From: Syntrophaceae bacterium
Lineage (GTDB): Bacteria > Desulfobacterota > BSN033 > UBA1163
Assembly (NCBI GenBank): GCA_013388645.1
Contig: JACAEV010000163.1
Span: 1 to 37,037 of the forward strand
Reading direction: 5' to 3'
DNA length: 37,037 nucleotides
Shown here: one piece after another, positions 5,730 through 36,295 of the stretch
Numbering within the stretch: the stretch's first letter is position 1
Layout of the letters: each line of letters opens with the position of its first letter
The notes under the pieces: model-generated
The model's database searches: none
The model's input: only the letters and a program-made list of their open reading frames with translations
Told to the model about the DNA's origin: nothing
Program-made: the position numbers and the translations under genes

Positions 5730-7001
5730 TTAAGCGCTTGTGGGTTTGACGGGTCTAAGGTAGGCTCCCCAATAACTCATTCCTACGAATACACCGCCGC
5801 CAATGATATTACCGATGGTAACGGGAAGGAGATTTCTCCATAAGAAATTCCCCCATCCAAGGATATTAAGATCTACTCCTGAAATATTGGCCATCCCCGG
5901 CGCATTCTTCAACAAGATTCCCGTTGGAATGAAATACATGTTGGCGACGCTGTGTTCGAAACCGATGGCAACGAAAGCCATGATGGGGAAAAAGATGGCA
6001 AATATTTTTCCAATGGTTTGTCGAGAGGCGAGAGCCATCCAGACCGCTAAACAGACCAACCAGTTGCAACCGATTCCGCGCCAAAGGGCTTCACTAAAGC
6101 TAAGTGCAGTCTTATTATAAGCAATCTTCACCGCGGCCATACCGAGCGCACCATCGGCTGTTTTCCACAGTCCCGAATAGTAGAAGAGGAGCGTGACGAG
6201 AATTGATCCAATGAAGTTAGCCACAAAAACCACTCCCCACCTTTTCAACATAGTATTGAAGGTGATTTCTCTCGACATGACACTGGACACCATCAGATTA
6301 TTACCTGTGAATAACTCTGCTCCTGCAATGACCACAAGCATCAGACCGACACTAAAAGCAGCCCCTGCCATGATCTTGCTAAAGCCGATCCCCCATTTGG
6401 CGGCGGCATCAAAGGTAACCGTTGTTGACAACAACCCCCCAAAGCCAATGTAGGCTCCTGCTAAAATGCCGAGTACAAATACAGTAAACCAAGGGGAAGT
6501 GGCCTTGGCCACTCCTACCGTTTGAGCAACAGTCTCGGCAATGGTCTTGGGAGCTTTATCCTCTAAGGTAGGGACCGGAAATTGCCAAGATTTCATGATC
6601 GTTTCGAATCGCCCGATGGCTTTTTTCTCTTCTGTGACTTTCCGTCTCACCGCCTTTTTCACAACCTCGATAATCTCTTCGGGGCGAAAAGGTTTAGCCA
6701 GGTAATCCATGGCTCCCCGTTTCATGGCTTCCGTAGCTCGGCCAACCGAAGGATAGCCGCTGATCATCACCACGGCGGAATTGGGTGACCGCTTGTCAAT
6801 CTCTTCCACCACATCCATTCCATCAAAACCCGGCATCATCCAGTCCACCAAAATCACATCAAATGTTTTCCCTGAGACAAGCTGGAGCCCTTCTTGTGGA
6901 TTGGCGGTCGTTGTGACCTCAAAGCCTTCAGCTTCAAATATTTTTCGACATGATTTCAGGACAATCTCTTCATCATCGATGATCAACATCTTTTCAGCCA
7001 T
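5730..7001 (-). CDS. Response-regulator receiver fused to formate/nitrite channel (FNT family)
   Basis: This 423-aa protein has two recognisable parts in one frame. Residues 1-125 are a complete receiver domain: acidic pocket D9-D10, phospho-acceptor D53 in LVDWMMPG, S81 in MISGYP, and K103 in LAKPF. After a linker of about 30 residues, residues 155-415 are a six-helix formate/nitrite transporter of the FocA/NirC type, with the AGAELFTGNNL signature and GFEHSVANMYFIP, where H350 is the conserved pore histidine. FocA N-termini are cytoplasmic and take part in gating, so a receiver placed there suggests phosphorylation-controlled opening; that is inference. The receiver resembles the separate receiver encoded next upstream. 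Transport of formate is favoured by the hydrogenase and FrhB neighbours; nitrite or hydrosulfide is possible. Confidence 0.92.
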   Translation of the reverse strand: MAEKMLIIDDEEIVLKSCRKIFEAEGFEVTTTANPQEGLQLVSGKTFDVILVDWMMPGFDGMDVVEEIDKRSPNSAVVMISGYPSVGRATEAMKRGAMDYLAKPFRPEEIIEVVKKAVRRKVTEEKKAIGRFETIMKSWQFPVPTLEDKAPKTIAETVAQTVGVAKATSPWFTVFVLGILAGAYIGFGGLLSTTVTFDAAAKWGIGFSKIMAGAAFSVGLMLVVIAGAELFTGNNLMVSSVMSREITFNTMLKRWGVVFVANFIGSILVTLLFYYSGLWKTADGALGMAAVKIAYNKTALSFSEALWRGIGCNWLVCLAVWMALASRQTIGKIFAIFFPIMAFVAIGFEHSVANMYFIPTGILLKNAPGMANISGVDLNILGWGNFLWRNLLPVTIGNIIGGGVFVGMSYWGAYLRPVKPTSA

Positions 7002-9551: not shown

Positions 9552-10700
9552 CTAAGTAGGAGGGGGAGATGGCGTGATGAAACCCGCTACCGTTCCCCGA
9601 TTTCTCAGAGCCCGTTCTTTCTTTCTTTGGGAGAAGTCAAGTATCCGCTTTTGGATCTGGATTAGTTCATTTCGAGCCTTCTCAGCAGATGAGTATTTTC
9701 TCTCTTTAATATAACCGGCGGTCAGAGCTCCCCGATAAACCATTTTCCCTTTCTCTGATCGGATGAGCACAGTGGTATATCCCTCTGGAGAGCCTAACCC
9801 TCCAAACGAGATGTCTGAATATTCAGCTGAAAAATCAGGACACACCAAGCATGCCGGCCGCGCAATGGAATCAATCTCTTCAAAAGGAATGTGGATCACC
9901 CTTCCATCCTTAAGGTAAATAAAAAAGTCTTCTTTGACGTTGACCTTTGTCACATGGGCTAAGTCAAATCCATATCGTTTCTCTAAGTGCTTCATCTGGA
10001 CGTCGTTGAAAGAAAAGTTCTCCATACAGAAAAGGCCGAAACAGTACTTGATGACATCGGAGGGAAGGATTCCAAGCACCTGCATCTTCCGGACAGTATG
10101 AATCTGACAAGGTGTCCCGACCATGGCCACTCGATCGATTAACCCCTTCCGCAAACTTTTCAGTTCACGTATGGCAGGTGAATAGGTGGAGTAATGGTCT
10201 CCCAACTTGACAATTGAAAAAGACTCATCATAATGGGAACCTGAAGCGGAGATGATTTCCTCTCCTGAAGTGGCAAGCATGGGACCTCTATGAAAAGGAC
10301 CGTCACTTCTTGAGACCAATGCCCCATCGATCATATGATTATCCATGAGATAGAGAAGGAGAGAGGTCACGACCCCTCCATCTGTACACTTCTCCCCTAT
10401 GATGGGGTTGGTGGTCTGAGCCGACACCAAGTCTTTGATTTGCCCAATGGGCGCTTCCCAGTTCGTTTTCTTTTTTAATTCCTCGTCAAGTTCATGGATG
10501 TTGGGACAGATCAAGTAGCAGATCCCGCAATGAAGGCACTTCTCTTCATCCGCAAATCTGGGCATTCCATCTGGCCCAATTTCCAATGCCCCGAGGTTGG
10601 AAGCGGAACAAAAAGCAACACAACCTCCGCACTTCCCACAGAAATTGTTTTTTTGAACGATTCGGATCAAATCATGAAAGGTTTTGACGTCGGTTTCCAT
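9552..10700 (-). CDS. FrhB/FdhB-like iron-sulfur flavoprotein (coenzyme F420 hydrogenase/dehydrogenase beta family)
   Basis: In this 382-aa protein residues 20-70 hold a ferredoxin-type pair of clusters, CGKCGGCVAFC and CLHCGICYLICP. The FrhB N- and C-terminal domains follow, with GGVVTSLLLYLMDN, the VAMVGTPCQIHTVRKM motif, a conserved Cys in IKYCFGLFCMENF, and ARPACLVCPDFSAEYSDISFGG. Family members are FAD/Fe-S subunits of formate dehydrogenases, F420 hydrogenases and reductases that pass electrons between a cofactor and ferredoxin. It lies directly after hydE in the hydrogenase operon, so it may be an extra electron-input subunit or separate reductase working with the HydABC complex. A link to formate is possible because a formate/nitrite channel is encoded downstream. 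The exact electron carrier cannot be read from sequence. Confidence 0.85.
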   Translation of the reverse strand: METDVKTFHDLIRIVQKNNFCGKCGGCVAFCSASNLGALEIGPDGMPRFADEEKCLHCGICYLICPNIHELDEELKKKTNWEAPIGQIKDLVSAQTTNPIIGEKCTDGGVVTSLLLYLMDNHMIDGALVSRSDGPFHRGPMLATSGEEIISASGSHYDESFSIVKLGDHYSTYSPAIRELKSLRKGLIDRVAMVGTPCQIHTVRKMQVLGILPSDVIKYCFGLFCMENFSFNDVQMKHLEKRYGFDLAHVTKVNVKEDFFIYLKDGRVIHIPFEEIDSIARPACLVCPDFSAEYSDISFGGLGSPEGYTTVLIRSEKGKMVYRGALTAGYIKERKYSSAEKARNELIQIQKRILDFSQRKKERALRNRGTVAGFITPSPPPT

Positions 10701-10738: not shown

Positions 10739-11878
10739 CTATTTCGGTATTTTTGAACCCCAAAATTTATAATTTTTATTCTTCTCAATGAGATCCAGAA
10801 GTTTATGGTCCGTTACAGGATGGGAAGACTTACCTTCAGATCGATGAATGCGGTCACCCCGACCCTCCCCTATCCTCCGTCCAAGGGACGGAATATGGCG
10901 TTTTAAAGAATCATCAACATCTTTTGGATTTTCTTTCAGACATGCCTTGGAAGGGTAAATTTCATAATTCAAACGATATTGAATAGGGGTCAGGTTGGGC
11001 ATCACCACATTTGCTCCTCGAATTAAACCCAATTCTCTTCCCCATTCAGGGTTGAGGGTGGCTAAGGCTGTGGTGCTTGGGATATTAGATTCTGGACACA
11101 CAATCCGCGTTAAAGCAATCACCTTATAGGTCATCTTTTCCGTATTGGGAACTTGTTCTTCCTCAGGGATCCTCCATGTCCATTCCCCTTGGCCTAAAGG
11201 GGTTTGAGGATGGGGAAGATAAGGTCCCACACCGATCATGTCAAGATCGAGCCTTCGGAAAAGTTCGATGTCATCGGCAAGACTGGCATAGGTTTGACCT
11301 GGAATGCCAATCATGACCCCACTCCCTGTCTCATAGCCCAGCTGTTTTAAGGTTTGGAGGATCGCTATGCGATCCGATTTATTTTGGGGAAGCGAAGGAT
11401 GAATGAGATGATAGAGGCCTATATCTGAGGTCTCGAACCGAAGGAGGTACCGATCGGCACCGGCTTTGCGCCATTCCTCCAAGTCTTCATCCGGTCGCTC
11501 TCCTAAACTTAATGTGATCGCCAGTGGGGTTTCTCGTTTAATGCGTCGGAGGATGTTTGCAAACCATTTTGTCTCAATCCCATCATCCTCACCCGACTGG
11601 AGGACGACTGTTCCATAACCATATCGTTCTGCTTCACCCACACAGGCCATGATCTCCTCTTCGCTCATTCGGTAACGCTCAAGTTCCTTGTGAGCCGAGC
11701 GTAAGCCACAATAGCCGCATTGTCTGATGCAATGGTTCGATATTTCAATGAGTCCGCGCAAGTGAACCTCTTCGCCAACAGTTTCTTTTCGCACGGTGTC
11801 AGCCCATTGCCACAACTCATTGAGTCGCGTTTCATCCTCTTCGCGCAGCCAACGCAGTATCTCATCTCGCTTCATCAT
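10739..11878 (-). CDS. hydE: HydE, [FeFe]-hydrogenase H-cluster radical SAM maturase
   Basis: This radical S-adenosylmethionine enzyme of about 379 aa has the CIRQCGYCGLR cluster motif (CX3CX2C). GEDDGIET, LSLGERPDEDLEEWRKAGADRYLLRFETS and GIGVGPYLPHPQTPLG-type segments are typical of HydE in the biotin-synthase-like family. HydE builds part of the dithiolate bridge of the H-cluster. The chosen start is the ATG at 11878, which overlaps the hydF stop as ATGATGA and has aagga nine bases upstream; a longer frame up to 11935 would run inside hydF. The C-terminal IPSLGRRIGEGRGD is the expected HydE ending, followed by a longer basic tail. It sits between hydF and the FrhB-like gene. Confidence 0.93.
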   Translation of the reverse strand: MMKRDEILRWLREEDETRLNELWQWADTVRKETVGEEVHLRGLIEISNHCIRQCGYCGLRSAHKELERYRMSEEEIMACVGEAERYGYGTVVLQSGEDDGIETKWFANILRRIKRETPLAITLSLGERPDEDLEEWRKAGADRYLLRFETSDIGLYHLIHPSLPQNKSDRIAILQTLKQLGYETGSGVMIGIPGQTYASLADDIELFRRLDLDMIGVGPYLPHPQTPLGQGEWTWRIPEEEQVPNTEKMTYKVIALTRIVCPESNIPSTTALATLNPEWGRELGLIRGANVVMPNLTPIQYRLNYEIYPSKACLKENPKDVDDSLKRHIPSLGRRIGEGRGDRIHRSEGKSSHPVTDHKLLDLIEKNKNYKFWGSKIPK

Positions 11879-13212
11879 CGGATCGATTCCTTGTCCTCTC
11901 TTTCGCTCCTTTGATATTTCTTTAGGGAAGTACATCCCTTTCCTTCATTTCTATAAATCTCGAGAGCCGCTGGAAAGGGACCCAACGCCCTTTCAAATAT
12001 CCCAAGCGAAAAAGCGATCGTTAATCCGTAGTTCGTCATGGGCACATTTGCCTGACGGCATCGTAACATCCGCGTGAGCATTTCTCGACGATTCATCATA
12101 CAGGCGCCACAATGGATGACGAGATGGTAGGGTGAAAGATCCTCTGGGAAATCATGCCCCTGCACGGTTTTAAACTCCAATTTCCCACCGACATATTGAG
12201 TGAGCCACCTGGGAATTTTAATACGACCAATATCTTCTGCAATGGGATGATGGGAGCATGCTTCAGCAATCAAAATTCGATTGCCAGGTTTTAGTCGATC
12301 GATGGCCAATGTCCCACGAATGAGCTCGGAGAGGTCGCCTTTAAATCGAGCAAAGAGAATAGAAAAAGAGGTAAGAGGGATCTCTCGAGGCGTATCCGCC
12401 GCCACCTTGAGAAAGGCTTGAGAATCAGTGACCACAAGTTTTGGGGGGCGGTTCAGACGCTCCAGGGCATGCTGAAGTTCCTGTTCCTTCACGACCATGC
12501 AATAAGCATCACTATCCAAGAGATCCCGTATGGCTTGGACTTGCGGCAGGATCAGCCGGCCCTTAGGAGCCTCCTTATCGATGGGAACGACCAGTACGGC
12601 CATCTCCCCTGGCCCAATCAGATCACCCAGAATGGCCGGATGGTTGATAAACTCCACGGGTGCGACCTCAAGGAGTGATTGCCTCAGGTCCGGTATCCCC
12701 TCACCTGAAATGGCAGAGGTTTTGACCACTGGGATTCTTTTTTGATTCAATTGGTTTATGACCTCTGCTTCTGGTTCACCGCGATCGGATTTATTGAAGA
12801 CCATGACGATAGGGATATTTCGAGCTTTCAATTCAGCAACCAGTTGTTCCTCAAAATCTCCCCACCTCCCCGCCTCTGAAACAATCACTCCCAAATCCGT
12901 CCGATCAAAAATTTGATGTGTCTTATGAATTCGAAGCTCACCGAGGGATCCGGTATCGTCTATCCCAGCTGTATCAATAAACAGGACAGGGCCTAAAGGG
13001 AGAAACTCCATGGGCTTTTCCACGGGATCCGTCGTCGTCCCCGCCACATCGGAGACAATGGAGACACTTTGACGGGTGATGGCATTGAGCAGGCTAGACT
13101 TTCCCACATTGCGGCGTCCAAATATGCCGATATGGAGTCGAAATCCCTTTGGAGTGGATTGGTGGTGGATGCTTTGCCCCATCAGCTCTTGTTCGGTTGA
13201 AGAATGCCCCAT
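11875..13212 (-). CDS. hydF: HydF, [FeFe]-hydrogenase maturation GTPase and scaffold
   Basis: This protein of about 445 aa has an N-terminal GTPase domain: P-loop IFGRRNVGKSSL, switch AGTTTDPV, DTAGIDD, NKSD. A dimerisation domain and a C-terminal cluster-binding domain follow, with EACSHHP and HCGACM providing the Cys ligands for the [4Fe-4S] cluster that carries the 2Fe precursor. HydF accepts the products of HydG and HydE and loads them into HydA. The ATG at 13212 is preferred over a TTG at 13221; an ATG at 13182 is also possible. It follows hydG by about 23 bases and overlaps hydE by four bases, so the three maturases are coupled. Confidence 0.93.
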   Translation of the reverse strand: MGHSSTEQELMGQSIHHQSTPKGFRLHIGIFGRRNVGKSSLLNAITRQSVSIVSDVAGTTTDPVEKPMEFLPLGPVLFIDTAGIDDTGSLGELRIHKTHQIFDRTDLGVIVSEAGRWGDFEEQLVAELKARNIPIVMVFNKSDRGEPEAEVINQLNQKRIPVVKTSAISGEGIPDLRQSLLEVAPVEFINHPAILGDLIGPGEMAVLVVPIDKEAPKGRLILPQVQAIRDLLDSDAYCMVVKEQELQHALERLNRPPKLVVTDSQAFLKVAADTPREIPLTSFSILFARFKGDLSELIRGTLAIDRLKPGNRILIAEACSHHPIAEDIGRIKIPRWLTQYVGGKLEFKTVQGHDFPEDLSPYHLVIHCGACMMNRREMLTRMLRCRQANVPMTNYGLTIAFSLGIFERALGPFPAALEIYRNEGKGCTSLKKYQRSEREDKESIR

Positions 13213-13235
13213 ATCAATCAATTTTTCTACAACAT

Positions 13236-14645
13236 TTAAAAATAGAGATCGCGTTCTCCCTGTTCGATTTGGATCAAGCGTTTCCTGGTTTCATCTCGGC
13301 GTTTGGCAGAGGGGATCTCTCCGACACTTTTTTCAAGCAGGGCATAACCTGCCGCTCGAGTTTCTGGGGTCGCATAGTCCTCCAGGTATTCTTTGAAAGT
13401 CAAAATGGCATTGGGTAGGCAGAACTGTTTGATGAGGCCAGGTTTGGCTAAGTCCATGAAGTCCTCCCCTGTTCGGCCCAAACGGTAACACCCGGTACAG
13501 AAGGAAGGGATATAACCCATCTGCACAATATCAAAAATAACTTCATCCAAACTCCGATGATCTCCTAATTGAAATTGGGCGCCCGAACGTTCCCCTTCCG
13601 TATAACCTCCTGGATTTGTCCGACTGCCAGCGCTGATCTGTGAAACGCCGAGGGCAAATGTTTCAGCCCTCATTTTTGCCGTTTCTCTGGTACTCATGAT
13701 GATGCCGGTGTAAGGAACAGCCAGACGTAAGATAGCGACAATCTTTTTAAAATCTTCATCTGAAACGGGATAGGGTGGGCTGGCCGCAATTTCCGAACCG
13801 TCTGCGGGTTCAAGTCTTGGAACACTGATCGTATGAGGTCCTACCCCATAGCTTTTTTCGAGGTGTCGGATATGCTGGATCATGGCAAGGATCTCAAATT
13901 GAAAATCATAGAGGCCGAACAACACGCCAATTCCCACATCATCGATCCCTCCCTCAAACGCCCTGCCGATGGCACCCAGCCTCCAATGGTAATCCGCTTT
14001 GGGCCCGCTCGGATGCATCTGCTGATAGGTAGGTAAGTGATACGTCTCCTGAAAGAGCTGGTAGGTCCCAATCTTCGTGGCTTTGAGCTCACGGAATTCT
14101 TCGACCGTCAAAGGGGCGATATTGACGTTGACGCGGCGAATTTCACCCTTGCCTTCGCGAATCCCGTAGATGGTGGCAATGGATTTAAAGATATAATCTA
14201 AGCCCTCATGTGGATAAGCCTCTCCTGCTACCAAAAGAATCCGTTTGTGCCCTGTCCGGACCAAGTGGCGAACCTCTTCTGCAATCTCTTCTTGAGTCAG
14301 CGCCCTTCGCTGGATGCTTTTATTTCTCACACGAAAGGCACAGTATCGGCAATCGTTTTGACAAAGATTCGAAATATAAAGAGGCGAAAAGAGGACAAGA
14401 CGTTTTCCATAGATAGACTCTTTGACTTCTCTTGCAGCATGAAACATCTCTTCCAACACCATCGGGTCATGACATTGAAGAAGAGCAGCAACCTCTCCAT
14501 GATTCAGACCTTTAAGCTCCCTTGCTTTGGTGATGATCTCACGAATCTGTTGCCGATCGGATCGACTGCCGGTTTCAAGTTGGGTTTGGATGATACGTTC
14601 GTCGATGATATTCAGTAGCTTCCTCCTTTTCTCCACCGTTTCCAT
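13236..14645 (-). CDS. hydG: HydG, [FeFe]-hydrogenase maturase (tyrosine lyase)
   Basis: From the internal ATG at 14645 this gives 469 aa, the usual HydG length. It has the radical SAM motif CQNDCRYCAFR, the long HydG core (LVAGEAYPHEGLDYI, YQLFQETYHLPTYQQMHP, GVLFGLYDFQFE), and the C-terminal auxiliary cluster motif FCTGCYRLGRTGEDFM followed by QFCLPNA. HydG cleaves tyrosine to supply CO and CN ligands for the H-cluster. The frame is open without a stop into the upstream histidine kinase, so as read it could be the C-terminal half of a 1101-aa kinase-HydG protein; a G-rich site (aggggggtaagaag) in front of the ATG can serve as ribosome-binding site. The separate-gene model is favoured because both parts have complete family lengths. 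Confidence 0.92.
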   Translation of the reverse strand: METVEKRRKLLNIIDERIIQTQLETGSRSDRQQIREIITKARELKGLNHGEVAALLQCHDPMVLEEMFHAAREVKESIYGKRLVLFSPLYISNLCQNDCRYCAFRVRNKSIQRRALTQEEIAEEVRHLVRTGHKRILLVAGEAYPHEGLDYIFKSIATIYGIREGKGEIRRVNVNIAPLTVEEFRELKATKIGTYQLFQETYHLPTYQQMHPSGPKADYHWRLGAIGRAFEGGIDDVGIGVLFGLYDFQFEILAMIQHIRHLEKSYGVGPHTISVPRLEPADGSEIAASPPYPVSDEDFKKIVAILRLAVPYTGIIMSTRETAKMRAETFALGVSQISAGSRTNPGGYTEGERSGAQFQLGDHRSLDEVIFDIVQMGYIPSFCTGCYRLGRTGEDFMDLAKPGLIKQFCLPNAILTFKEYLEDYATPETRAAGYALLEKSVGEIPSAKRRDETRKRLIQIEQGERDLYF

Positions 14646-16541
14646 CTTCTTACCCCCCTGTTTTTCAGCAATAGGAAGATGGATGATGAAGGTTGTCCCC
14701 ATCCCTTCTTCGCTTTCTACGTGGATTTGGCCTCCATGCTTATCCACAATCTCTTTGACAATGGCCAACCCCAACCCTGTTCCGATGACATCCTTGACGT
14801 TGGATGCGCGAAAAAATTGTGTAAACAAACGATCCATTTCTAATCTGGGTATCCCGATCCCATTGTCGCTGACCACAATACGAACCATCCCATCGGTCCC
14901 AGGCCAAAAGGTCATCCCCACACGTCCGCCTTTGGGGGTATATTTGATCGCATTGGAAATCAGATTCTCAAACATCTGCTCGATCATCTCTAAATCCCCT
15001 TTGATCTGAGGTAACTCTTCAGGAATGCTTAACTCAAAAGACAACTCCTTTTTCGCTATCTCGTCCTGAAAGTTCTGATGGAGTCGTCGAGCAATCGGCT
15101 TGAAATCAATGGCTTTGTATTCCATGTGCGGTCGTTTGCTCTGACTCTTCGCCAGGGTCATTAATTCGTTAATCATCAAAAGCATACTCTGAACCCGACG
15201 ATCCAAGCGATTCAGATAGTCTTGTAATGTTTCACTCCTCTCCCCCAGATATCCGTCCCGGATGACTTCGAGCATACTCGCCATGGTGGCTAAAGGAGCT
15301 CGAAGATTATGAGCCACCCGGTTCATGAAATGCGATCTTTCTTGAACAAGGTCTTCAATAGCCTCATAGGCTTGTGCATTCTCGATGGCAATGGCCACTA
15401 ACCCTGCAGCTTGCCGGAAAAAATTTAAATCATCAGGACCAAATTGCTCCGGACGAGTCGAGTAGGCTCCGAGGATTCCGATAATCCGATTCTCCACGAC
15501 GAGAGGGACAAATTGCACAGATTGTAACCGCGCCGCGCTCAAATCTTCTCCAAATTGAAACCATTCGCCCTGAGTCACACGCCCCGTGACAAAGGATTCT
15601 CCCTCGATGACTCGACGGTTGAGAGGACTCCTCTCTAACTCAACGACCCGGTTCATGAAATCGGGAGGCAAACCATAGGCTGCTGCGTAACGCAAAAACT
15701 TTCCATCATCGCTGAGGAGCTTGACGGAGATGGCTTGGACCTCCATGACACGACTCAGTTCTGAAGTAGCCACCTGGAGCATTTGATCGAGGTGCTGTTT
15801 CGAGAGAATGGCTTGGGTCATGGTGTAGAGGGCGTTCAGCCTGTCATTGAGCGCCGTGACCGCCTCCGTGAGTTCAGCCAGGTGAAGGATTCTCCTCTCT
15901 AACATTCTCATGACGGCGGTGGTGGAGAGGGCCGTGATGAAAACGAATCCAGCAAAGAAAATCAAGATGACCAGTATATGAAAGGGTTGCCCGCTCAGAT
16001 CAATCGATTTTCCATGGAAGAAGAGAGTTTGAGAGGGGATCCAGCCTAAATATCTAACCCCTGCGATCAGTCCCATGCCTAACACGGCCATGGCAGCAAA
16101 ACTATACGTCGAACGAGGTGGAAGAAAGATAGCAGAAAAGGTGATGTGAAAAATGAAAAAAAAGATAAAGGGACTGGCGATCCCACCGGTGAAATGGATG
16201 AGGAGAAACATGGTCCCATAGTCGAAGCCCACTTGCCAATAGGTAAAGCGCTCGATATCTTCTTTTCGGCAAGTCTCCGCCCTAATCCGGCGACTGAGAA
16301 GATAGAAGACGAGGTTATAGATCAGAATAAAACAGGCGACTCCGAGAAGGGCCGTCGTGTTGAATTCAACCCCCGCCCATCGAGCGACTATTATGCCGAT
16401 AGCAATCCCTATTGGGACCCACCAGCGGAGTTTGATAAACCAAAGGGTTCTCTCCTTCAGTTCTCCTAAAATAATCCGCCTCCGCTTCTGAAGCTCAGCG
16501 GGTAGGTCGAGTAAACTTGTTTCCTTGTTAAGCTGGGTCAT
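14646..16541 (-). CDS. Membrane sensor histidine kinase with GAF domain, in frame with hydG
   Basis: The ATG at 16541 (MTQLNKETSLL) starts about 632 aa before the HydG start. Around six hydrophobic segments lie between residues 35 and 215, a GAF domain at about 240-390, a HisKA helix with phospho-acceptor H411 in NRVAHNLRAPLATM, and an HATPase domain with NLISNAIKYTPKGG, DNGIGIPRLEMDRLF and GTGLGLAIVKEIVDKHGG. The sensor is membrane-embedded without a large external loop. It follows a lone receiver gene by 28 bases, a likely partner. As read there is no stop codon before hydG; one extra G in a six-G run at 14653-14658 would create TAA immediately after the kinase. A frame extending upstream to 16709 overlaps the receiver gene and is unlikely to be the start. 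Confidence 0.87.
14653..14658. other. Six-base homopolymer controlling the kinase/hydG reading frame
   Basis: On the minus strand the junction reads cag ggg ggt aag aag atg. With seven G the frame would be cag ggg ggg taa, ending the kinase 11 bases before the hydG ATG. The run therefore decides whether kinase and HydG are fused or separate. It could be a sequencing indel, a real fusion, or a slippery site. Confidence 0.6.
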
Positions 16542-16569: not shown

Positions 16570-16974
16570 TTAGCCACCAGCCAAGATGCCTTCGATCTTA
16601 GCAATGAGCTTCTTTGTGTCCACAGGCTTCTCGAATAACCACTTAGCTGGCCAAGATTCTCCCATGATGTGTTGAAATTTGTCCGGACCTTCCTGCCGTA
16701 CCTTTTCAAGGAAACTCGTCAAGAGGATGATGGGAAGGTCCTTCAGCTCAGGCTTGCTCTTGAGCTCATAGGCCAGATCAAAACCCTCGGTGTCCGTCGT
16801 CATCATGATATCAAGGATCATGAGGTCAGGTCTTTTATTCTTCACTGCCTCAAGGGCCTCTTGGCCATTCGCTGCAGTTCGAACGAAATAGCCGTTCTTT
16901 TCTAAAATGATCTGGAGTGAGTCGCGAAGATCCTGATCGTCATCCACGAGAAGAATTTCGCCTTTGGTTGTCAT
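16570..16974 (-). CDS. Single-domain response regulator in hydrogenase operon
   Basis: This 134-aa receiver domain has D11-D12-D13, phospho-acceptor D55 in LMILDIMM, T in LLTSF, and K in FEKPVD. The loop after the phosphorylation site (TTDTEGFDLAYELKSKPEL) and the segment EGPDKFQHIMGESWPAKWLFEKP are longer than in CheY, a variant receiver. A strong Shine-Dalgarno site (aaaggagggtct) precedes the ATG. There is no output domain. It is located between hydA and the GAF kinase, the probable phosphodonor, and may act by binding the hydrogenase or another protein. Confidence 0.88.
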   Translation of the reverse strand: MTTKGEILLVDDDQDLRDSLQIILEKNGYFVRTAANGQEALEAVKNKRPDLMILDIMMTTDTEGFDLAYELKSKPELKDLPIILLTSFLEKVRQEGPDKFQHIMGESWPAKWLFEKPVDTKKLIAKIEGILAGG

Positions 16975-17009: not shown

Positions 17010-18737
17010 TTACACGCCACGTTTTACATAATGGGTATGAAGCAGTTGATGAGACCTCTCACCTAAAGGTTCATGAAGGAATGTTTCGTAGAGTTGCTTG
17101 ACGGCTGGGTTTTCGTGAGACTGCCTAAGTCTCTGCACATCTTTATCGTCATGATAGAGAGCTTGGGCCCGAAGCATCCGTTTCTCATTACTGGCAGGCA
17201 AGGACTGTCCGCCTCCTCCCACACAACCTCCAGGACAGGCCATGATCTCTATGAAATGATAGTCTGCCGTCCCTTCTATGATTTGATCCATCAATTTTCG
17301 AGCATTGGCCAAGCCATGGGCCACAGCAACCCGAACCTCTCCCAACCTCCCCACTTCAAGGGTGGCTTCTTTCACCCCTTCCAAGCCACGCACTGGTGTG
17401 ATATCGAGGATAGGAAGGTTCTCCCCTGTCACGACCGCATAGACCGTCCGAAGGGCCGCTTCCATTACACCTCCGGTTGCTCCAAAAATGGTCCCCGCAC
17501 CTGTATATTGGCCCATCGGGGCGTCAAATGGTTCGTCCGGAAGATTGACAAAATCGATGCCTGCTTGCCGAATCATTCGACCTAACTCACGGGCGGTCAA
17601 AACGACATCAACATCTCGATAGCCTGACGAATTCATCTCCGGTCTGGAAGCTTCAAATTTTTTAGCGGTGCACGGCATAATGGATACCACAAAAATATTC
17701 TTGGGGTCAATTCCTGCAAACTCGGCATAGTAGGTTTTCGCCAAAGCACCAAACATTTGTTGAGGCGACTTACACGTACTTAAGTTCGGAAGAAGAGAAG
17801 GATAAAAATGTTCTACAAATTTAATCCATCCTGGGCTGCAGGAGGTCATCATGGGCAATGTGCCCCCATTTTGGAGCCTTTTTAATAGCTCATGGCCCTC
17901 CTCTATGATCGTCAGGTCAGCGGTAAAGTTCGTATCAAAAACCTTATCAAATCCTAATCGCCTCAGTGCGGCGATCATCTTCCCAGTCACCAGCGTTCCT
18001 GGTGGAAGACCAAACTCCTCCCCTAACATCGCTCGAATCGCAGGGGCCTCTTGAACAATGACATGTTTATGGGGATCCTCCAGGACAGCCCAAACCTGAT
18101 CCACTTCGTCCCGCTCAACAATAGCTCCGGTGGGACAGACCACTGCACATTGGCCGCACAGGACGCAGACGGCATCCATCAAGCTTGTACCCATGGCGGG
18201 CACGACCTTGCAGTTAAACCCCCTGGCCTCAGGAGTCAGGCAGTAGACGCCTTGAACTTCTGCACAAGCCGTCACACAACGAAGGCAATTGATACATTTG
18301 GAGGTATCGCGGATCAGCGAAGGAGAGGAATCGTCAATACGGTGGTGGGTGAAGTCCGTGCGGGGCACACGAATTTCACGCACTCCGATCTGCTCTGCTA
18401 TCGACTGTAATTCACAATGCCCATTTTTTTGGCAGATCGTACAGTCTTGGGGGTGGTCAGACAGAAGAAATTCAATGACCGTCTGTCGAGCACGGCGCAC
18501 TCGATCGCTATTGGTCTTCACTTTCATCCCTTCTGCGACAGGGAAGACACAAGAGGCTACCAAGTTACGACTCCTTTCAACCTCAACCACACATACTCGG
18601 CATGCCCCGGGTGTATGATGGATCTCTACGTTTGCGCAAAGAGTGGGAATATGAATCCCTATTTTATGGGCGGCCTCGAGAAGGGTCGTCCCCTCCGGGA
18701 CCTGTAGCTTTTGATTATCAATTGTCAGGTTAACCAT
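17010..18737 (-). CDS. hydA: HydA, [FeFe]-hydrogenase catalytic subunit
   Basis: This 575-aa protein starts at the ATG at 18737 (MVNLTIDN) after a gggaggaaaagca ribosome-binding site. The order is: an N-terminal [2Fe-2S] ferredoxin domain (CANVEIHHTPGACRVC, C after VAS), a His-ligated [4Fe-4S] (HPQDCTICQKNGHCELQ), two [4Fe-4S] (CINCLRCVTAC, CVLCGQCAVVCP), then the H-domain with TSCSPGW, IMPCTAKKFE and EIMACPGGCVGGGGQ, and a small-subunit-like tail (RAQALYHDDKDVQRLRQSHENPAVKQLY). This is the CpI-like layout seen in NAD(P)-linked multimeric enzymes. The first H-cluster motif has Ser where the common form has a second Cys (TSCCPGW). It works with hydB and hydC encoded just upstream, reducing protons or oxidising H2 in the cytoplasm. 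Confidence 0.95.
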   Translation of the reverse strand: MVNLTIDNQKLQVPEGTTLLEAAHKIGIHIPTLCANVEIHHTPGACRVCVVEVERSRNLVASCVFPVAEGMKVKTNSDRVRRARQTVIEFLLSDHPQDCTICQKNGHCELQSIAEQIGVREIRVPRTDFTHHRIDDSSPSLIRDTSKCINCLRCVTACAEVQGVYCLTPEARGFNCKVVPAMGTSLMDAVCVLCGQCAVVCPTGAIVERDEVDQVWAVLEDPHKHVIVQEAPAIRAMLGEEFGLPPGTLVTGKMIAALRRLGFDKVFDTNFTADLTIIEEGHELLKRLQNGGTLPMMTSCSPGWIKFVEHFYPSLLPNLSTCKSPQQMFGALAKTYYAEFAGIDPKNIFVVSIMPCTAKKFEASRPEMNSSGYRDVDVVLTARELGRMIRQAGIDFVNLPDEPFDAPMGQYTGAGTIFGATGGVMEAALRTVYAVVTGENLPILDITPVRGLEGVKEATLEVGRLGEVRVAVAHGLANARKLMDQIIEGTADYHFIEIMACPGGCVGGGGQSLPASNEKRMLRAQALYHDDKDVQRLRQSHENPAVKQLYETFLHEPLGERSHQLLHTHYVKRGV

Positions 18738-18764
18738 TGCTTTTCCTCCCTCTATCAAATGGGG

Positions 18765-21700
18765 CTATGACTCTATGGAGGCATCGCAACGCATGCAACG
18801 ACGAGCTTCAGCGATGGCCATCTCCAGGGTATAGCCCAATTCCACTTCACGAAAATCCATACGACGAAGCTTTGGGGAAACTTCTGGCATTCGTGTCTGG
18901 GGTTGCTCCTGGGTCTCCTCATCCACTTCAAAAGGAATTTCTATCCTTTCTTCTTCAGGCGGAACCCACAGCTTTTCACCATTGGCCAGACGGATGGTCT
19001 CATCGATGGCACAAGCAGCCTGCTGCCCGGCTTTGATGGCATCGATGACCATGCCTGGTCCTGTAACCACATCTCCACCCGCCCAGACCTTAGCATGTCG
19101 CGTCCTAAAATTTTTGTCGACCTGGATCATTGCTTGGTCTATGAGAATGCCACTCTCTTTTGGCAAAAACTCCAGATCGGGATTCTGACTGATCGCGGAG
19201 ATGACGGTTTCTGCTTTTTCCATGAATTCTGAACCGAGGATCGGCTTGGGTTGCCTTCTTCCACTTCGGTCAAATTTATCGAGTCGCATCTGGGTGAGTT
19301 CCAATTTCGTGACCTTCCCATATTGGGTAATGATCCTCAATGGACCAACTAAATACATCATCCGTACCCCTTCCTCCTCGGCTGCCTTGATCTCCCATTC
19401 TTGGGCTGGCATATCCTTTTGTTCCCGACGATAATAAATGGTTACTTGCTTCGCACCCAAACGAATAGCCGTTCGAGCAGCATCAATGGCTGAGTTACCA
19501 CCACCGATCACCGCGACATGTTTCCCAACTTTAACCTTTTTCCCTAAGTTGTAGTCCCTAAGGAATTCCACGGCTCCCAAAACACCTTGAGCCTCTTCAC
19601 CAGGGATGTGGAGTGGGGCACTTTTTTGAGCCCCTACAGCTAAATAGATGATGTCAAAGTCTTGATTCACCGCTTCAAAAGAAATGTCCCTCCCGATGCG
19701 AACATTGGTCCGAAGCTCCACGCCAGTGTCGAGGATTTCCTGAATCTCTCGGTTAAGCTCTTCTCGAGGAAGTCGATAGGGAGGAATGCCCCATCGAAGC
19801 ATCCCCCCTGCTTCAGGCAACTCTTCAAACACAGTCACTGCATATCCCCGTTTCTTAAGCTCAAGGGCAGCAGTCAGCCCTGAAGGACCCGCACCGATCA
19901 CAGCGACTCGTTCCTTCCGGGTAACGGGCAGCCGTTCCACAGGAGGCCTCTTCGCATGGTCGGTGATGAATCGTTTGAGATGCATAATCGCTATGGGTTC
20001 ATCGAGTTGACCACGTCGGCATTTCATTTGGCAGGTGTGCCCGCAAACCCTCCCACAAACACTTGGAAAAGGGTTGGTTCGTTTGAGCACCTTATAGGCA
20101 TCATCAATACGCCCAGCCCGAACGAGGGCAATGTAAGCTGGGATGTCCATTCCAACTGGGCAGGTATGTTGACAAGGACTCTTAAACAAGGCGGAGCAGA
20201 CGGCTGCTGGACAACGTTTTTCAAAGATATGGGCTTCATATTCCTGCCGGAAGTAACGGATGGTACTCAGGATGGGATTCGGGGCGGTTTGACCTAACCC
20301 ACACAAAGCGGTGTCTTTGATCTGTAGGGCCAAATCTTCAAGAAGTTCTATATCCCCTTTTCGACCCTCCCCTTTACAAATCCGCTGGAGGATTTCAAGC
20401 ATTCGTTTGGTCCCAACCCGACAGGGGGTACACTTCCCGCAAGATTCATCCTGGCAGAAATCCATAAAATAACGTGCCATATCTACCATGCAGGTGTCAT
20501 CATCCATAACGATCATTCCACCTGAGCCCATGATCGCCCCTGCTTGGGTAATGGCTTCATAGTCTGTGGGGATGTTTAGGTGCTCTGCCGGGATACACCC
20601 TCCAGAGGGACCACCCAATTGAGCCGCTTTAAATTTTTTCCCAGAAGGGATGCCACCACCGATGTCGAAGATGATCTCGCCAAGGGTTGTCCCCATCGGG
20701 ACTTCAACCAAACCAATACGATTGACTTTGCCAGTCAGGGCAAATACTTTTGTTCCCTTAGAAGACTCGGTTCCAATCTTTGCATAGTTCTCCCCTCCTT
20801 GGAGAATGATTTGCGAAATATTGGCATAGGTTTCAACATTGTTGAGGACGGTAGGTTTTTTCCACAAACCAGAGATGGCCGGAAATGGTGGGCGGGGGCG
20901 AGGCATTCCGCGCTGTCCCTCAATTGAACTCATTAAAGCTGTTTCCTCTCCGCAAACAAACGCACCCGCCCCCTGATAGACTTCGATATCAAAATCAAAC
21001 CCTGAGCCAAGAATATCCCTCCCAAGAAGTCCATATTCACGGGCCTGTTGAATGGCAAGGTTCAGCCTTTTTACGGCCAAAGGATATTCCGCTCGGCAAT
21101 AAATATAGCCCTGGTGCGAATTGATCGCTTTGGCAGCAATGATCATACCCTCTATCACCGCATGCGGGTCGGCCTCCATCACACTTCGATCCATAAAAGC
21201 ACCCGGGTCTCCTTCATCGGCGTTGCAGAGGATATACTTCGTCTCTCCTTTAGAAGCGGCACAGAACTCCCATTTGATCCCTGTGGGAAAACCTCCACCC
21301 CCGCGACCACGAAGGCCTGAGGTCTTCACCTCGGAAATAATTTCGGATGGGGTCATTTCGAGTAATGCTTTGGCGGCTGCCTGATAGCCATCACGCCAGA
21401 TATAGTCTTCTATTTTTTCAGGATCGATCAAGCCTTTATTACGAAGAACCCATAATTTTTGAAGGGCGAAAAAGGGAACCTGTGAGACGTGAGGAAGCGT
21501 ATCTGATCCGGTAGGCATCGGATCTTCATTGACCGCCTTCCCTCGCACCAAAGCAATGGCGTATTGTATTTCTCCGTTCAGGAGATGTCCCTTAAAAATC
21601 TGCCGCATCTTTGGATCATCCACTTGATGATAAATGATCGGTTCTTTCCCCAACATTTCTACAGTGACCAATGGTTCTTGGCTACATAGTCCGATACAAC

Positions 21701-21914
21701 CTGAACTGGTGATGGAAATGTCTGACCGGCCACTCTTTGACATTTCATCAAGCACGGCGTCCATGACTTTTTGAGCTCCCGAAGCAATACCACAAGTGCC
21801 CATATGGACGGTAATTCGAGCGGTCAGTCCTTCCTGACGGAGCTGTTTTTCTTGATTCACGTTTTCCTTGATCACTTTCAAATCGTCTCGATCTCTAATT
21901 TTCTTTGCCATCAT
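18765..21914 (-). CDS. hydB: HydB/NuoF-like subunit fused to GltD/NfnB-like flavoprotein
   Basis: From the ATG at 21914 (ggaggtgtgaa just before it) this is a protein of about 1049 aa. Residues 1-150 are a thioredoxin-like [2Fe-2S] domain (HMGTCGIASGA, SSGCIGLC). About 165-580 are NuoF: GLRGRGGGGFPTG for FMN/NADH, CNADEGDPGAFMDR, an SLBB segment, and CGKCTPCRVG for a [4Fe-4S]. About 600-1049 are a glutamate-synthase-small-subunit-like oxidoreductase: CPVGMDIPAYI and CGRVCGHTCQMKCRRG clusters, VAVIGAGPSGL (FAD), VAVIGGGNSAIDAAR (NAD(P)H), AGGDVVTGPGMVIDAIKAG. The tail ends RCMRCD. NuoF takes or gives NADH electrons; the extra NfnB-like half may bind NADPH and split electrons. The C-terminal ferredoxin of ordinary HydB is replaced by this module. 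It forms the core of the HydABC complex. Confidence 0.92.
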   Translation of the reverse strand: MMAKKIRDRDDLKVIKENVNQEKQLRQEGLTARITVHMGTCGIASGAQKVMDAVLDEMSKSGRSDISITSSGCIGLCSQEPLVTVEMLGKEPIIYHQVDDPKMRQIFKGHLLNGEIQYAIALVRGKAVNEDPMPTGSDTLPHVSQVPFFALQKLWVLRNKGLIDPEKIEDYIWRDGYQAAAKALLEMTPSEIISEVKTSGLRGRGGGGFPTGIKWEFCAASKGETKYILCNADEGDPGAFMDRSVMEADPHAVIEGMIIAAKAINSHQGYIYCRAEYPLAVKRLNLAIQQAREYGLLGRDILGSGFDFDIEVYQGAGAFVCGEETALMSSIEGQRGMPRPRPPFPAISGLWKKPTVLNNVETYANISQIILQGGENYAKIGTESSKGTKVFALTGKVNRIGLVEVPMGTTLGEIIFDIGGGIPSGKKFKAAQLGGPSGGCIPAEHLNIPTDYEAITQAGAIMGSGGMIVMDDDTCMVDMARYFMDFCQDESCGKCTPCRVGTKRMLEILQRICKGEGRKGDIELLEDLALQIKDTALCGLGQTAPNPILSTIRYFRQEYEAHIFEKRCPAAVCSALFKSPCQHTCPVGMDIPAYIALVRAGRIDDAYKVLKRTNPFPSVCGRVCGHTCQMKCRRGQLDEPIAIMHLKRFITDHAKRPPVERLPVTRKERVAVIGAGPSGLTAALELKKRGYAVTVFEELPEAGGMLRWGIPPYRLPREELNREIQEILDTGVELRTNVRIGRDISFEAVNQDFDIIYLAVGAQKSAPLHIPGEEAQGVLGAVEFLRDYNLGKKVKVGKHVAVIGGGNSAIDAARTAIRLGAKQVTIYYRREQKDMPAQEWEIKAAEEEGVRMMYLVGPLRIITQYGKVTKLELTQMRLDKFDRSGRRQPKPILGSEFMEKAETVISAISQNPDLEFLPKESGILIDQAMIQVDKNFRTRHAKVWAGGDVVTGPGMVIDAIKAGQQAACAIDETIRLANGEKLWVPPEEERIEIPFEVDEETQEQPQTRMPEVSPKLRRMDFREVELGYTLEMAIAEARRCMRCDASIES

Positions 21915-21915
21915 T

Positions 21916-22452
21916 TCACACCTCCGACCCATTCCCATCCGATCCACCCTCATACTTTTTTAGGATTTGATCAAGTTTAGCCTCCTTTACCTGTTTGTGG
22001 GTGTCGTCATCGACGACCATCACAGGTGCCAGGCCACATGCTCCCAAGCAACGAACCACATCGAGACTAAACTGACGGTCTTCTGTGCATTCCCCTGGCT
22101 TTAGGTTCAATGCCTGCATCAGATGTTCCATATTTCGCTTGGCTCCTCGCACATGGCAAGCAGTTCCCAGGCAGACTCGGATCTGGTGTTTTCCACGGGG
22201 CTTCATCGTAAAAAAAGAATAAAAGGTAGTCACTCCATACACCTGACTGAGCGGCAAGTTCAACCCTAAGGCCACTCGACGCTGAACAACCTCAGGCAGA
22301 TAGCCTGTAATTCCCTGAATCTCCTCCAACACAGGAATCAAAGCTCCTGGTTTGTCTTTGAATTTCTGAATCACCCCATCGATCTGGCACCATTGTTTTT
22401 CAGTGAAGCCATTTTCCCCCATCTTTTTTTCACATTTACATTCGTGATTCAT
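21916..22452 (-). CDS. hydC: HydC/NuoE-like [2Fe-2S] subunit
   Basis: The ATG at 22452 has gaggaggataaa directly before it; an upstream in-frame start at 22485 lacks such a site. The product is 178 aa, a NuoE/HndA thioredoxin-like [2Fe-2S] protein: a helical N-terminus (IPVLEEIQGITGYLPEVVQRRVA), VYGVTTFYSFF, then CLGTACHVRGA and CLGACGLAPVM supplying four Cys ligands. It is the small electron-entry subunit of NADH-linked hydrogenases. It is the first gene of the hydrogenase operon; its stop is followed by one base and the hydB ATG. A Cys-rich N-terminal piece (HECKCEKK) could be metal-binding. Confidence 0.92.
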   Translation of the reverse strand: MNHECKCEKKMGENGFTEKQWCQIDGVIQKFKDKPGALIPVLEEIQGITGYLPEVVQRRVALGLNLPLSQVYGVTTFYSFFTMKPRGKHQIRVCLGTACHVRGAKRNMEHLMQALNLKPGECTEDRQFSLDVVRCLGACGLAPVMVVDDDTHKQVKEAKLDQILKKYEGGSDGNGSEV

Positions 22453-22493
22453 TTTATCCTCCTCACTCAAAGTCCAATTACCCAATAAAATAT

Positions 22494-34295: not shown

Positions 34296-35135
34296 TCATC
34301 TTCCTGCTATCCCTTTGGCTCGCTCCCGAATCTTATCGTATTCATTTTGGTAGACCGGAAGTTCCTTATTCACCAAGATCCCGATCACCATTTTATTCTG
34401 CAATTCTTCAGGCTTCATCGTCGCCGCCTTTTCCACCGGGACGGCGTTATCCCTCTGCCACTCCATCATCTCAACCGCTGTGCCCAGACGGTTTTGTCTC
34501 CCATATTGGGTATGGCAGTGGGAGATCACCTCCACCACAGAAAACCCTTCCTTCAAGATCGCCTTCTCAATCAAACTATCCAAAAGTTTGGCATGATAGA
34601 CAGTTCCCCTCCCCACAAAGACCGCCCCTGCGGTGACCGCCAATTCCGAAATCTTAAAGTCTTGTTCAATATTAGAATAGATGGTGGTAGAAGACCTCAT
34701 TCCATAAGGGGTCGTGGGAGAATATTGTCCCCCCGTCATCCCGTAGATACTGTTGTTGACGATAATCGCCGTCACATCGATATTTCTTCGGGCGGCGTGA
34801 ATAAAATGATTTCCTCCAATGGCCACGGCATCCCCATCCCCCATGATCACGATGACTTTCAGGCTGGGTTTCGCTAATTTCACTCCCGTGGCAAAGGTCA
34901 GGGCCCGGCCATGCGTGGTATGAAGCGTATTAAAGTCTACATAAACGGGAAGCCTCCCCGAACATCCGATCCCTGAAACCAAAACCACCTCATCCTTCTC
35001 GTACCCGATCCGATCAATGGCTCGAATGAGGGCACCCAACATGATCCCGATTCCACAACCGGGGCACCAAACATGAGGAAATTTCTTGTCATGGCGGAGA
35101 TATTTATGAATGAGTTTCGTGACCTCGGACATCAA
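34296..35135 (-). CDS. korB: 2-oxoacid:ferredoxin oxidoreductase beta subunit (TPP-binding)
   Basis: This 279-aa protein has the start HVWCPGCGIGIMLGALIRAI, SGIGCSGRLPVYVDFNTLHTTHGRALTFATGVK, and the thiamine-pyrophosphate motif GDGDAVAIGGNHFIHAARRN...NNSIYGMTGGQYSPTTP. It is the catalytic TPP subunit. The start ATG overlaps the korA stop. Next to icd, 2-oxoglutarate is the most likely substrate. Confidence 0.95.
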   Translation of the reverse strand: MMSEVTKLIHKYLRHDKKFPHVWCPGCGIGIMLGALIRAIDRIGYEKDEVVLVSGIGCSGRLPVYVDFNTLHTTHGRALTFATGVKLAKPSLKVIVIMGDGDAVAIGGNHFIHAARRNIDVTAIIVNNSIYGMTGGQYSPTTPYGMRSSTTIYSNIEQDFKISELAVTAGAVFVGRGTVYHAKLLDSLIEKAILKEGFSVVEVISHCHTQYGRQNRLGTAVEMMEWQRDNAVPVEKAATMKPEELQNKMVIGILVNKELPVYQNEYDKIRERAKGIAGR

Positions 35136-36295
35136 AAAATCTCCTTGATTCGATTCCCTATTTCTTCGGGAGTAATAATGGTCCCGTCCACTTTATTCAG
35201 AGTGAAAACCTTGGCCACACCTCGATTGACCCGCTTGACCTCCCGAGAGATCTGACCCATATTCATTTCAGGGACCAGGAGGTTCTTTGAGGTTTTAAGA
35301 ACTTTCTCCACAGCGGACCTCACGAAAGGCCAAATCGTTATTAACTTGAGTAGCCCAACCTTTAATCCTTTCTCTCGGGCCTCGATCATTGCTCTTCTGG
35401 CCGATCGAGCCACACAACCATAAGCAACGATCGTGAGTTCAGCATCTTCTGTTTCATAATATTCCGCCATTTGAATCTCTGAGAAATGTTGACTGATTTT
35501 TCGATGAAGCCGATCGATAAAAGGACCAATTTCATCTGGCCTCGATGTGGGGAAGCCTCGAATATCATGAGTCAGACCGGTGACATGATATCGATAACCC
35601 TCTCCAAAATTAGCCATGGCTGGAATGCCGCTGGGGGTATCCTCAAATGGAAGGTACCATTCCGGAGGAACAGTGGGTTTCAATCGATTGAAGATCTCTA
35701 CCTCTGCCTCATCCGAAAGGGCCATCTTCTCTCGCATGTGACCAACGACTTCGTCGATTAAAACAATCACGGGGGTACGAAACTTTTCAGAAAGGTTAAA
35801 GGCCTTGATCGTGATGTCATAACACTCGCAAACCGTGGAGGCAGAGAGAACAATGATGGGATGATCTCCGTGCGTTCCCCACCGAGCTTGCATGACATCG
35901 CCTTGAGAAGGGGAGGTTGGAAGGCCGGTGCTCGGCCCTCCCCGCATGACATTCACAATGACGCAAGGAACCTCAGCGATGATGGCAAAGCCCAAATTCT
36001 CTTGCATCAGAGAAAATCCTGGGCCACTCGTTGCAGTCATGGATTTCACGCCTGCCAGAGAGGCACCAATCACGGCACCCAAGCTCGCGATCTCATCCTC
36101 CATCTGAATAAAAGTCCCATCCACCTGAGGAAGCTTAACGGACAAAATTTCAGAAATCTCTGTCGCCGGAGTGATCGGGTACCCTGCAAAAAAACGGCAT
36201 CCTGCGCGAAGGGCGCCTTCCACAACTGCTTCATTTCCCTGGAGCAACAATTCTCTCTGGTGAAATTTCTTCCTCTTTTGGCCCTGTCTCTTCAC
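35132..36295 (-). CDS. korA: 2-oxoacid:ferredoxin oxidoreductase alpha subunit
   Basis: This 387-aa protein has LLLQGNEAVVEGALRAGCRFFAGYPITPATEI, MEDEIASLGAVIGASLAGVKSMTATSGPGFSLMQENLG, and RGGPSTGLPTSPSQGDVMQARWGTHGDH, the conserved binding and domain I/II motifs of KorA. The GTG at 36295 has agaggagaaag just before it and is preferred, giving a 65-base overlap with korD; a TTG near 36250 is the other option. The C-terminal domain (NLLVPEMNMGQISREVKRV) is also complete. Confidence 0.93.
   Translation of the reverse strand: MKRQGQKRKKFHQRELLLQGNEAVVEGALRAGCRFFAGYPITPATEISEILSVKLPQVDGTFIQMEDEIASLGAVIGASLAGVKSMTATSGPGFSLMQENLGFAIIAEVPCVIVNVMRGGPSTGLPTSPSQGDVMQARWGTHGDHPIIVLSASTVCECYDITIKAFNLSEKFRTPVIVLIDEVVGHMREKMALSDEAEVEIFNRLKPTVPPEWYLPFEDTPSGIPAMANFGEGYRYHVTGLTHDIRGFPTSRPDEIGPFIDRLHRKISQHFSEIQMAEYYETEDAELTIVAYGCVARSARRAMIEAREKGLKVGLLKLITIWPFVRSAVEKVLKTSKNLLVPEMNMGQISREVKRVNRGVAKVFTLNKVDGTIITPEEIGNRIKEIF

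Follow-up and report, generated by a model that had tools for sequence, protein, structure and literature searches.

The window, a stretch of 37,037 nucleotides (positions 1 to 37,037 of contig JACAEV010000163.1, from a Syntrophaceae bacterium), carries on its minus strand an [FeFe]-hydrogenase operon in which a membrane histidine kinase and the predicted H-cluster maturase HydG share one reading frame. HydG assembles the metal centre of the hydrogenase, acting as a tyrosine lyase that yields CO and cyanide ligands. The operon runs in the order [2Fe-2S] subunit, NuoF/GltD-type HydB, HydA, response regulator, kinase-HydG, HydF, HydE, FrhB-like protein, second kinase, and response regulator, with the following features assigned.

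21916-22485, minus strand: thioredoxin-like [2Fe-2S] subunit, HydC-type (domain search)
18765-21953, minus strand: HydB-type NuoF subunit fused to a GltD-like NAD(P)-binding half (domain/profile search)
17010-18758, minus strand: HydA, [FeFe] hydrogenase group A6-type catalytic subunit (NF040763)
16570-16974, minus strand: single-domain response regulator, immediately upstream of the kinase gene (Pfam PF00072)
13236-16541, minus strand: merged frame, histidine kinase plus HydG, 1101 aa (ORF and profile matches)
14653-16541, minus strand: kinase part, residues 1 to about 630, 6TM PilS-like, GAF, HisKA, HATPase_c (Pfam; a separate 630-aa gene in the sister locus L026)
13236-14645, minus strand: predicted HydG, radical SAM H-cluster maturase, from an internal ATG (M633) (TIGR03955, conserved Cys, sequence)
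11875-13221, minus strand: HydF, start codon uncertain (TIGR03918)
10739-11935, minus strand: HydE (TIGR03956)

The merged frame is open for 1101 codons, its only stop being the terminal one, and joins an entire membrane GAF histidine kinase (residues ~1 to 632) to an entire HydG (M633 to 1101). This agrees with the initial annotation, which had reported that no stop separates the two and that both halves are complete. Pfam and NCBIfam matches place the PilS-like transmembrane region at residues 27 to 168, GAF at 251 to 388, HisKA at 402 to 468, and HATPase at 516 to 625. As in a sensor histidine kinase, the Pfam matches include HisKA with its His and HATPase_c with its N and G boxes, and the motifs HNLRAPL, ENLISNAIKYTP, DNGIGI, and GTGLGLAIV can be read in the sequence. 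The second half matches TIGR03955 from residue 645 to 1101 (profile positions 11 to 470 of 470), scoring 563 bits where the curated cut-off is 312, and contains both the radical SAM motif CX3CX2C (C727/C731/C734) and the C-terminal motif CX2CX22C (C1015/C1018/C1041); by sequence, the M633-1101 portion is assigned as HydG, the H-cluster maturase. Between the halves, the merged protein reads ...IAEKQGGKKMETVEK.... An AlphaFold2 model of the merged protein, built from a 23-sequence alignment, gives the HydG half pLDDT values mostly >90 and residues 627 to 641 values <50, as expected if a flexible tether links the halves here. The model is poor for the sensor part of the kinase, probably owing to the small number of kinase relatives in the alignment.

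Three short features lie where the two halves meet.

14653-14658, minus strand: six-G run, core of the putative HydG Shine-Dalgarno (SD) site, in which AGGGGGGU pairs with 8 nt of the anti-SD (SD pairing calculation)
14650-14652, minus strand: out-of-frame TAA, aligned to the in-frame kinase TAA stop of the sister genome (DNA alignment)
14643-14645, minus strand: ATG, probable independent HydG start at residue 633 (sequence and SD position)

Adding one G to the run would bring the TAA (14652-14650) into frame just ahead of the HydG ATG (14645-14643), which is followed 9 nt downstream by an in-frame GTG. The initial annotation had proposed that an extra G would thus end the kinase and leave an ATG for HydG, with a purine-rich site nearby; the positions of run, TAA, and ATG are confirmed. 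The run ends 6 nt before the ATG, and its pairing energy of -11.6 kcal/mol passes the threshold for the strongest 5% of random 20-mers (-10.8 kcal/mol), as calculated with a generic anti-SD that may not be the genome's own 16S end. Pairing holds alike with six or seven G. Equally strong SD sites occupy the same place before HydG in two relatives described below, RBG_13_61_14 (AAGGAG) and G429 (AAGGAGG). Since the run pairs with the anti-SD close before the ATG, it is better explained as a putative ribosome-binding site of HydG than as a slippage site. Programmed slippage, either transcriptional or as a -1 shift on G GGG GGT, would give a fused product plus a separate kinase, and the six-G run had been suggested earlier to control the locus in this way. 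The heptamer does fit X XXY YYZ, and a -1 shift would meet the TAA immediately. However, the run is not conserved, being absent from the junction in all three relatives (UBA2208, RBG_13_61_14, and G429); it has only six bases, shorter than the runs of at least eight that PMC3711429 names for transcriptional slippage; and the downstream RNA, with a z of 0.16, folds no better than shuffles, as opposed to forming a stimulatory structure. These comparisons do not support the suggestion, and we regard slippage as highly improbable.

Among the genomes searched, the sole same-genus one with a kinase-HydG pair is Syntrophaceae UBA2208 (G001), the sister, in which a 13-nt spacer separates the gene for the kinase (630 aa) from that for HydG (466 aa). 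In the DNA alignment, its TAA stop sits on the out-of-frame TAA of the window, with a single-base length difference upstream; taken alone, the aligned TAA would leave the polarity of the fusion ambiguous. The two genes are also separate in G429, with a 4-nt ATGA overlap and the SD site inside the end of the kinase. The spacing upstream of HydG in these relatives, -4 nt in G429 and +13 nt in UBA2208, is that of coupled pairs, which overlap or lie within about 13 nt. The more distant RBG_13_61_14 (L027) has an uninterrupted merged frame of 1104 aa, 67% identical, in the same operon type, with HydA and a response regulator before it and HydF downstream. The comparison with homologous operons that the initial annotation had called for revealed a second merged frame in RBG_13_61_14 and separate genes in UBA2208 and G429.

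Several observations concern the surrounding genes. RBG_13_61_14 has an additional stand-alone kinase copy (L158:9021-10967, plus strand; G400:C21), 57% identical to the window kinase. The response regulator adjoins the kinase in L027 as well and occurs in the L160 operon. ORFs similar in length to the NuoF/GltD-type HydB (18765-21953, minus strand) are present in UBA2208 and G429, and the FrhB (F420-hydrogenase beta-like) protein within the operon (9552-10700, minus strand) is shared with the sister. Elsewhere in the window (5730-7001, minus strand), a single 423-aa protein combines a receiver domain (residues 6 to 114) with a formate/nitrite transporter (155 to 411); five further genomes from the phylum encode full-length relatives of it at 66 to 95% identity, and this fusion is therefore conserved.

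A kinase in frame with HydG is found only in the window and RBG_13_61_14 among 102 distinct HydG-like matches. A conserved kinase-HydG family was rejected, as HydG matches from about 395 genomes of the phylum and from 116 genomes around G400 include these two loci and no further kinase-HydG fusion. Long open frames also lie upstream of HydG matches at L161 and L163, with no kinase recognisable by eye. At L162 (1287-3416, minus strand; G361:C69), a 709-aa ORF begins with a multi-helix, membrane-like part of ~250 aa and continues as a HydG-like radical SAM/BATS protein (40% identity). It is thus a further case of a membrane-like part joined in frame to a HydG-like protein, but its N-terminus is a different membrane part, and the ORF was rejected as a kinase fusion.

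In phylogenetic trees, the window groups firmly with UBA2208, and the HydG tree joins L027 and G429 weakly (85/72). As L027 groups with G429 and the window with UBA2208, two separate mergers would be the simplest count, albeit on weak tree support. A kinase-maturase fusion selected for a new function, for example a membrane-tethered HydG whose supply tracks the sensor, would be in keeping with merged frames in two lineages, an open linker, and two complete halves. Nevertheless, the closest relative of each merged locus keeps separate genes (the L027-G429 grouping being weak), which is not the pattern of a stable clade-wide fusion, the linker sequences differ between the two merged loci, and HydG retains its own SD in both, so such a fusion appears very unlikely. 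The merged frame differs from the two genes by a few codons only, too few for selection on the fusion to be read from them. It is also very unlikely that a bifunctional, membrane-tethered sensor kinase-HydG evolved at least twice, linking the synthesis of H-cluster ligands to a signal that the kinase senses.

An assembly or sequencing indel would place seven G in the true genome, with the kinase ending at the TAA and HydG starting 4 nt later. Seven G would restore a stop at the exact column of the sister's stop, homopolymers are the likeliest site of such errors, the window is a single base away from having two separate genes, and no other genus relative searched has the fusion. In contrast, no frame break in this genome turned up in the 56 orthologous genes (20,383 codons) of the stretches sampled for comparison with the sister. 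Two other frame breaks both fall in one G001 contig, L232, and what looks like a second frame break in the sister (34299-35192) is due to an N gap. Across 581 kb of this genome, G/C runs number 661 of five bases, 149 of six, and 30 of seven, a smooth fall with length; a six-base run is in itself common, and seven-G runs are not short in number. A seeming shortage of long G/C runs relative to the sister in a small sample (15 vs 31) was dropped, as the fall from six to seven is similar in a larger one (0.20 vs 0.22). Given the absence of frame breaks and the even fall-off of runs, the assembly does not look indel-prone. If errors hit runs of at least six bases at random, they would have 17 such runs to strike in the window, of which the junction is one, yet the stretch compared with the sister has no other frame change. 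The second merged genome, likewise a draft metagenome assembly, also argues against an error. Moreover, the junction is one of the few places where a real indel is harmless. Because of the low frame-break rate and this tolerance, we favour a real change over an assembly error, which we hold to be clearly the less likely of the two; this weighting is a rough judgement. Of the true fusion, assembly indel, and slippage offered by the initial annotation, real merging is thus best supported, by the second merged genome and the lack of other frame breaks, and slippage is not supported.

We consider it probable that two closely packed genes of the operon became one through a genuine one-base stop-loss, yielding both a kinase-HydG read-through product and, by internal initiation, free HydG. 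The kinase and HydG genes are normally neighbours in a compact [FeFe]-hydrogenase operon, where their junction measures -4 to +13 nt. A one-base length change just ahead of the kinase stop would have shifted that stop out of frame, leaving a single merged frame, so that ribosomes ending the kinase would run on into HydG and produce a membrane-anchored kinase-HydG, its halves joined by a short flexible linker. Initiation at the internal ATG at 14645, with the G run as its SD site, would continue to supply free HydG. We infer that the change exists in the cell and that both products are made; the merger is most likely recent and probably near-neutral.

No report of a kinase-HydG fusion was found in a small literature search. 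Should the joined protein be produced, it would, within that small search, be the first kinase-maturase chimaera found and would tether a hydrogenase maturase to the membrane. The locus offers a small, clear case of a single base turning two packed operon genes into one frame, with the second gene keeping its own ribosome-binding site. Most likely, this is mostly ordinary gene merging, seen again in a related bacterium, and neither a conserved fusion nor a recoding site.

The junctions of the relatives, at -4 to +13 nt and with an SD site inside the upstream gene in G429, resemble those of known coupled or overlapping operon gene pairs (PMC10666635; GeneTack survey, PMC3711429), whereas the upstream frame of the window and of L027 continues past the start of the downstream gene. 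The window kinase belongs with the membrane GAF, HisKA/HATPase_c kinases found beside single-domain response regulators in [FeFe]-hydrogenase operons, sharing domain order, length, and operon place with those of UBA2208 and G429, but it has lost its stop codon. Similarly, the window HydG is like its solved relatives (4WCX and 4RTB) in its full-length match to TIGR03955 and in both cysteine motifs, and differs from them in having a histidine kinase in frame ahead of it.
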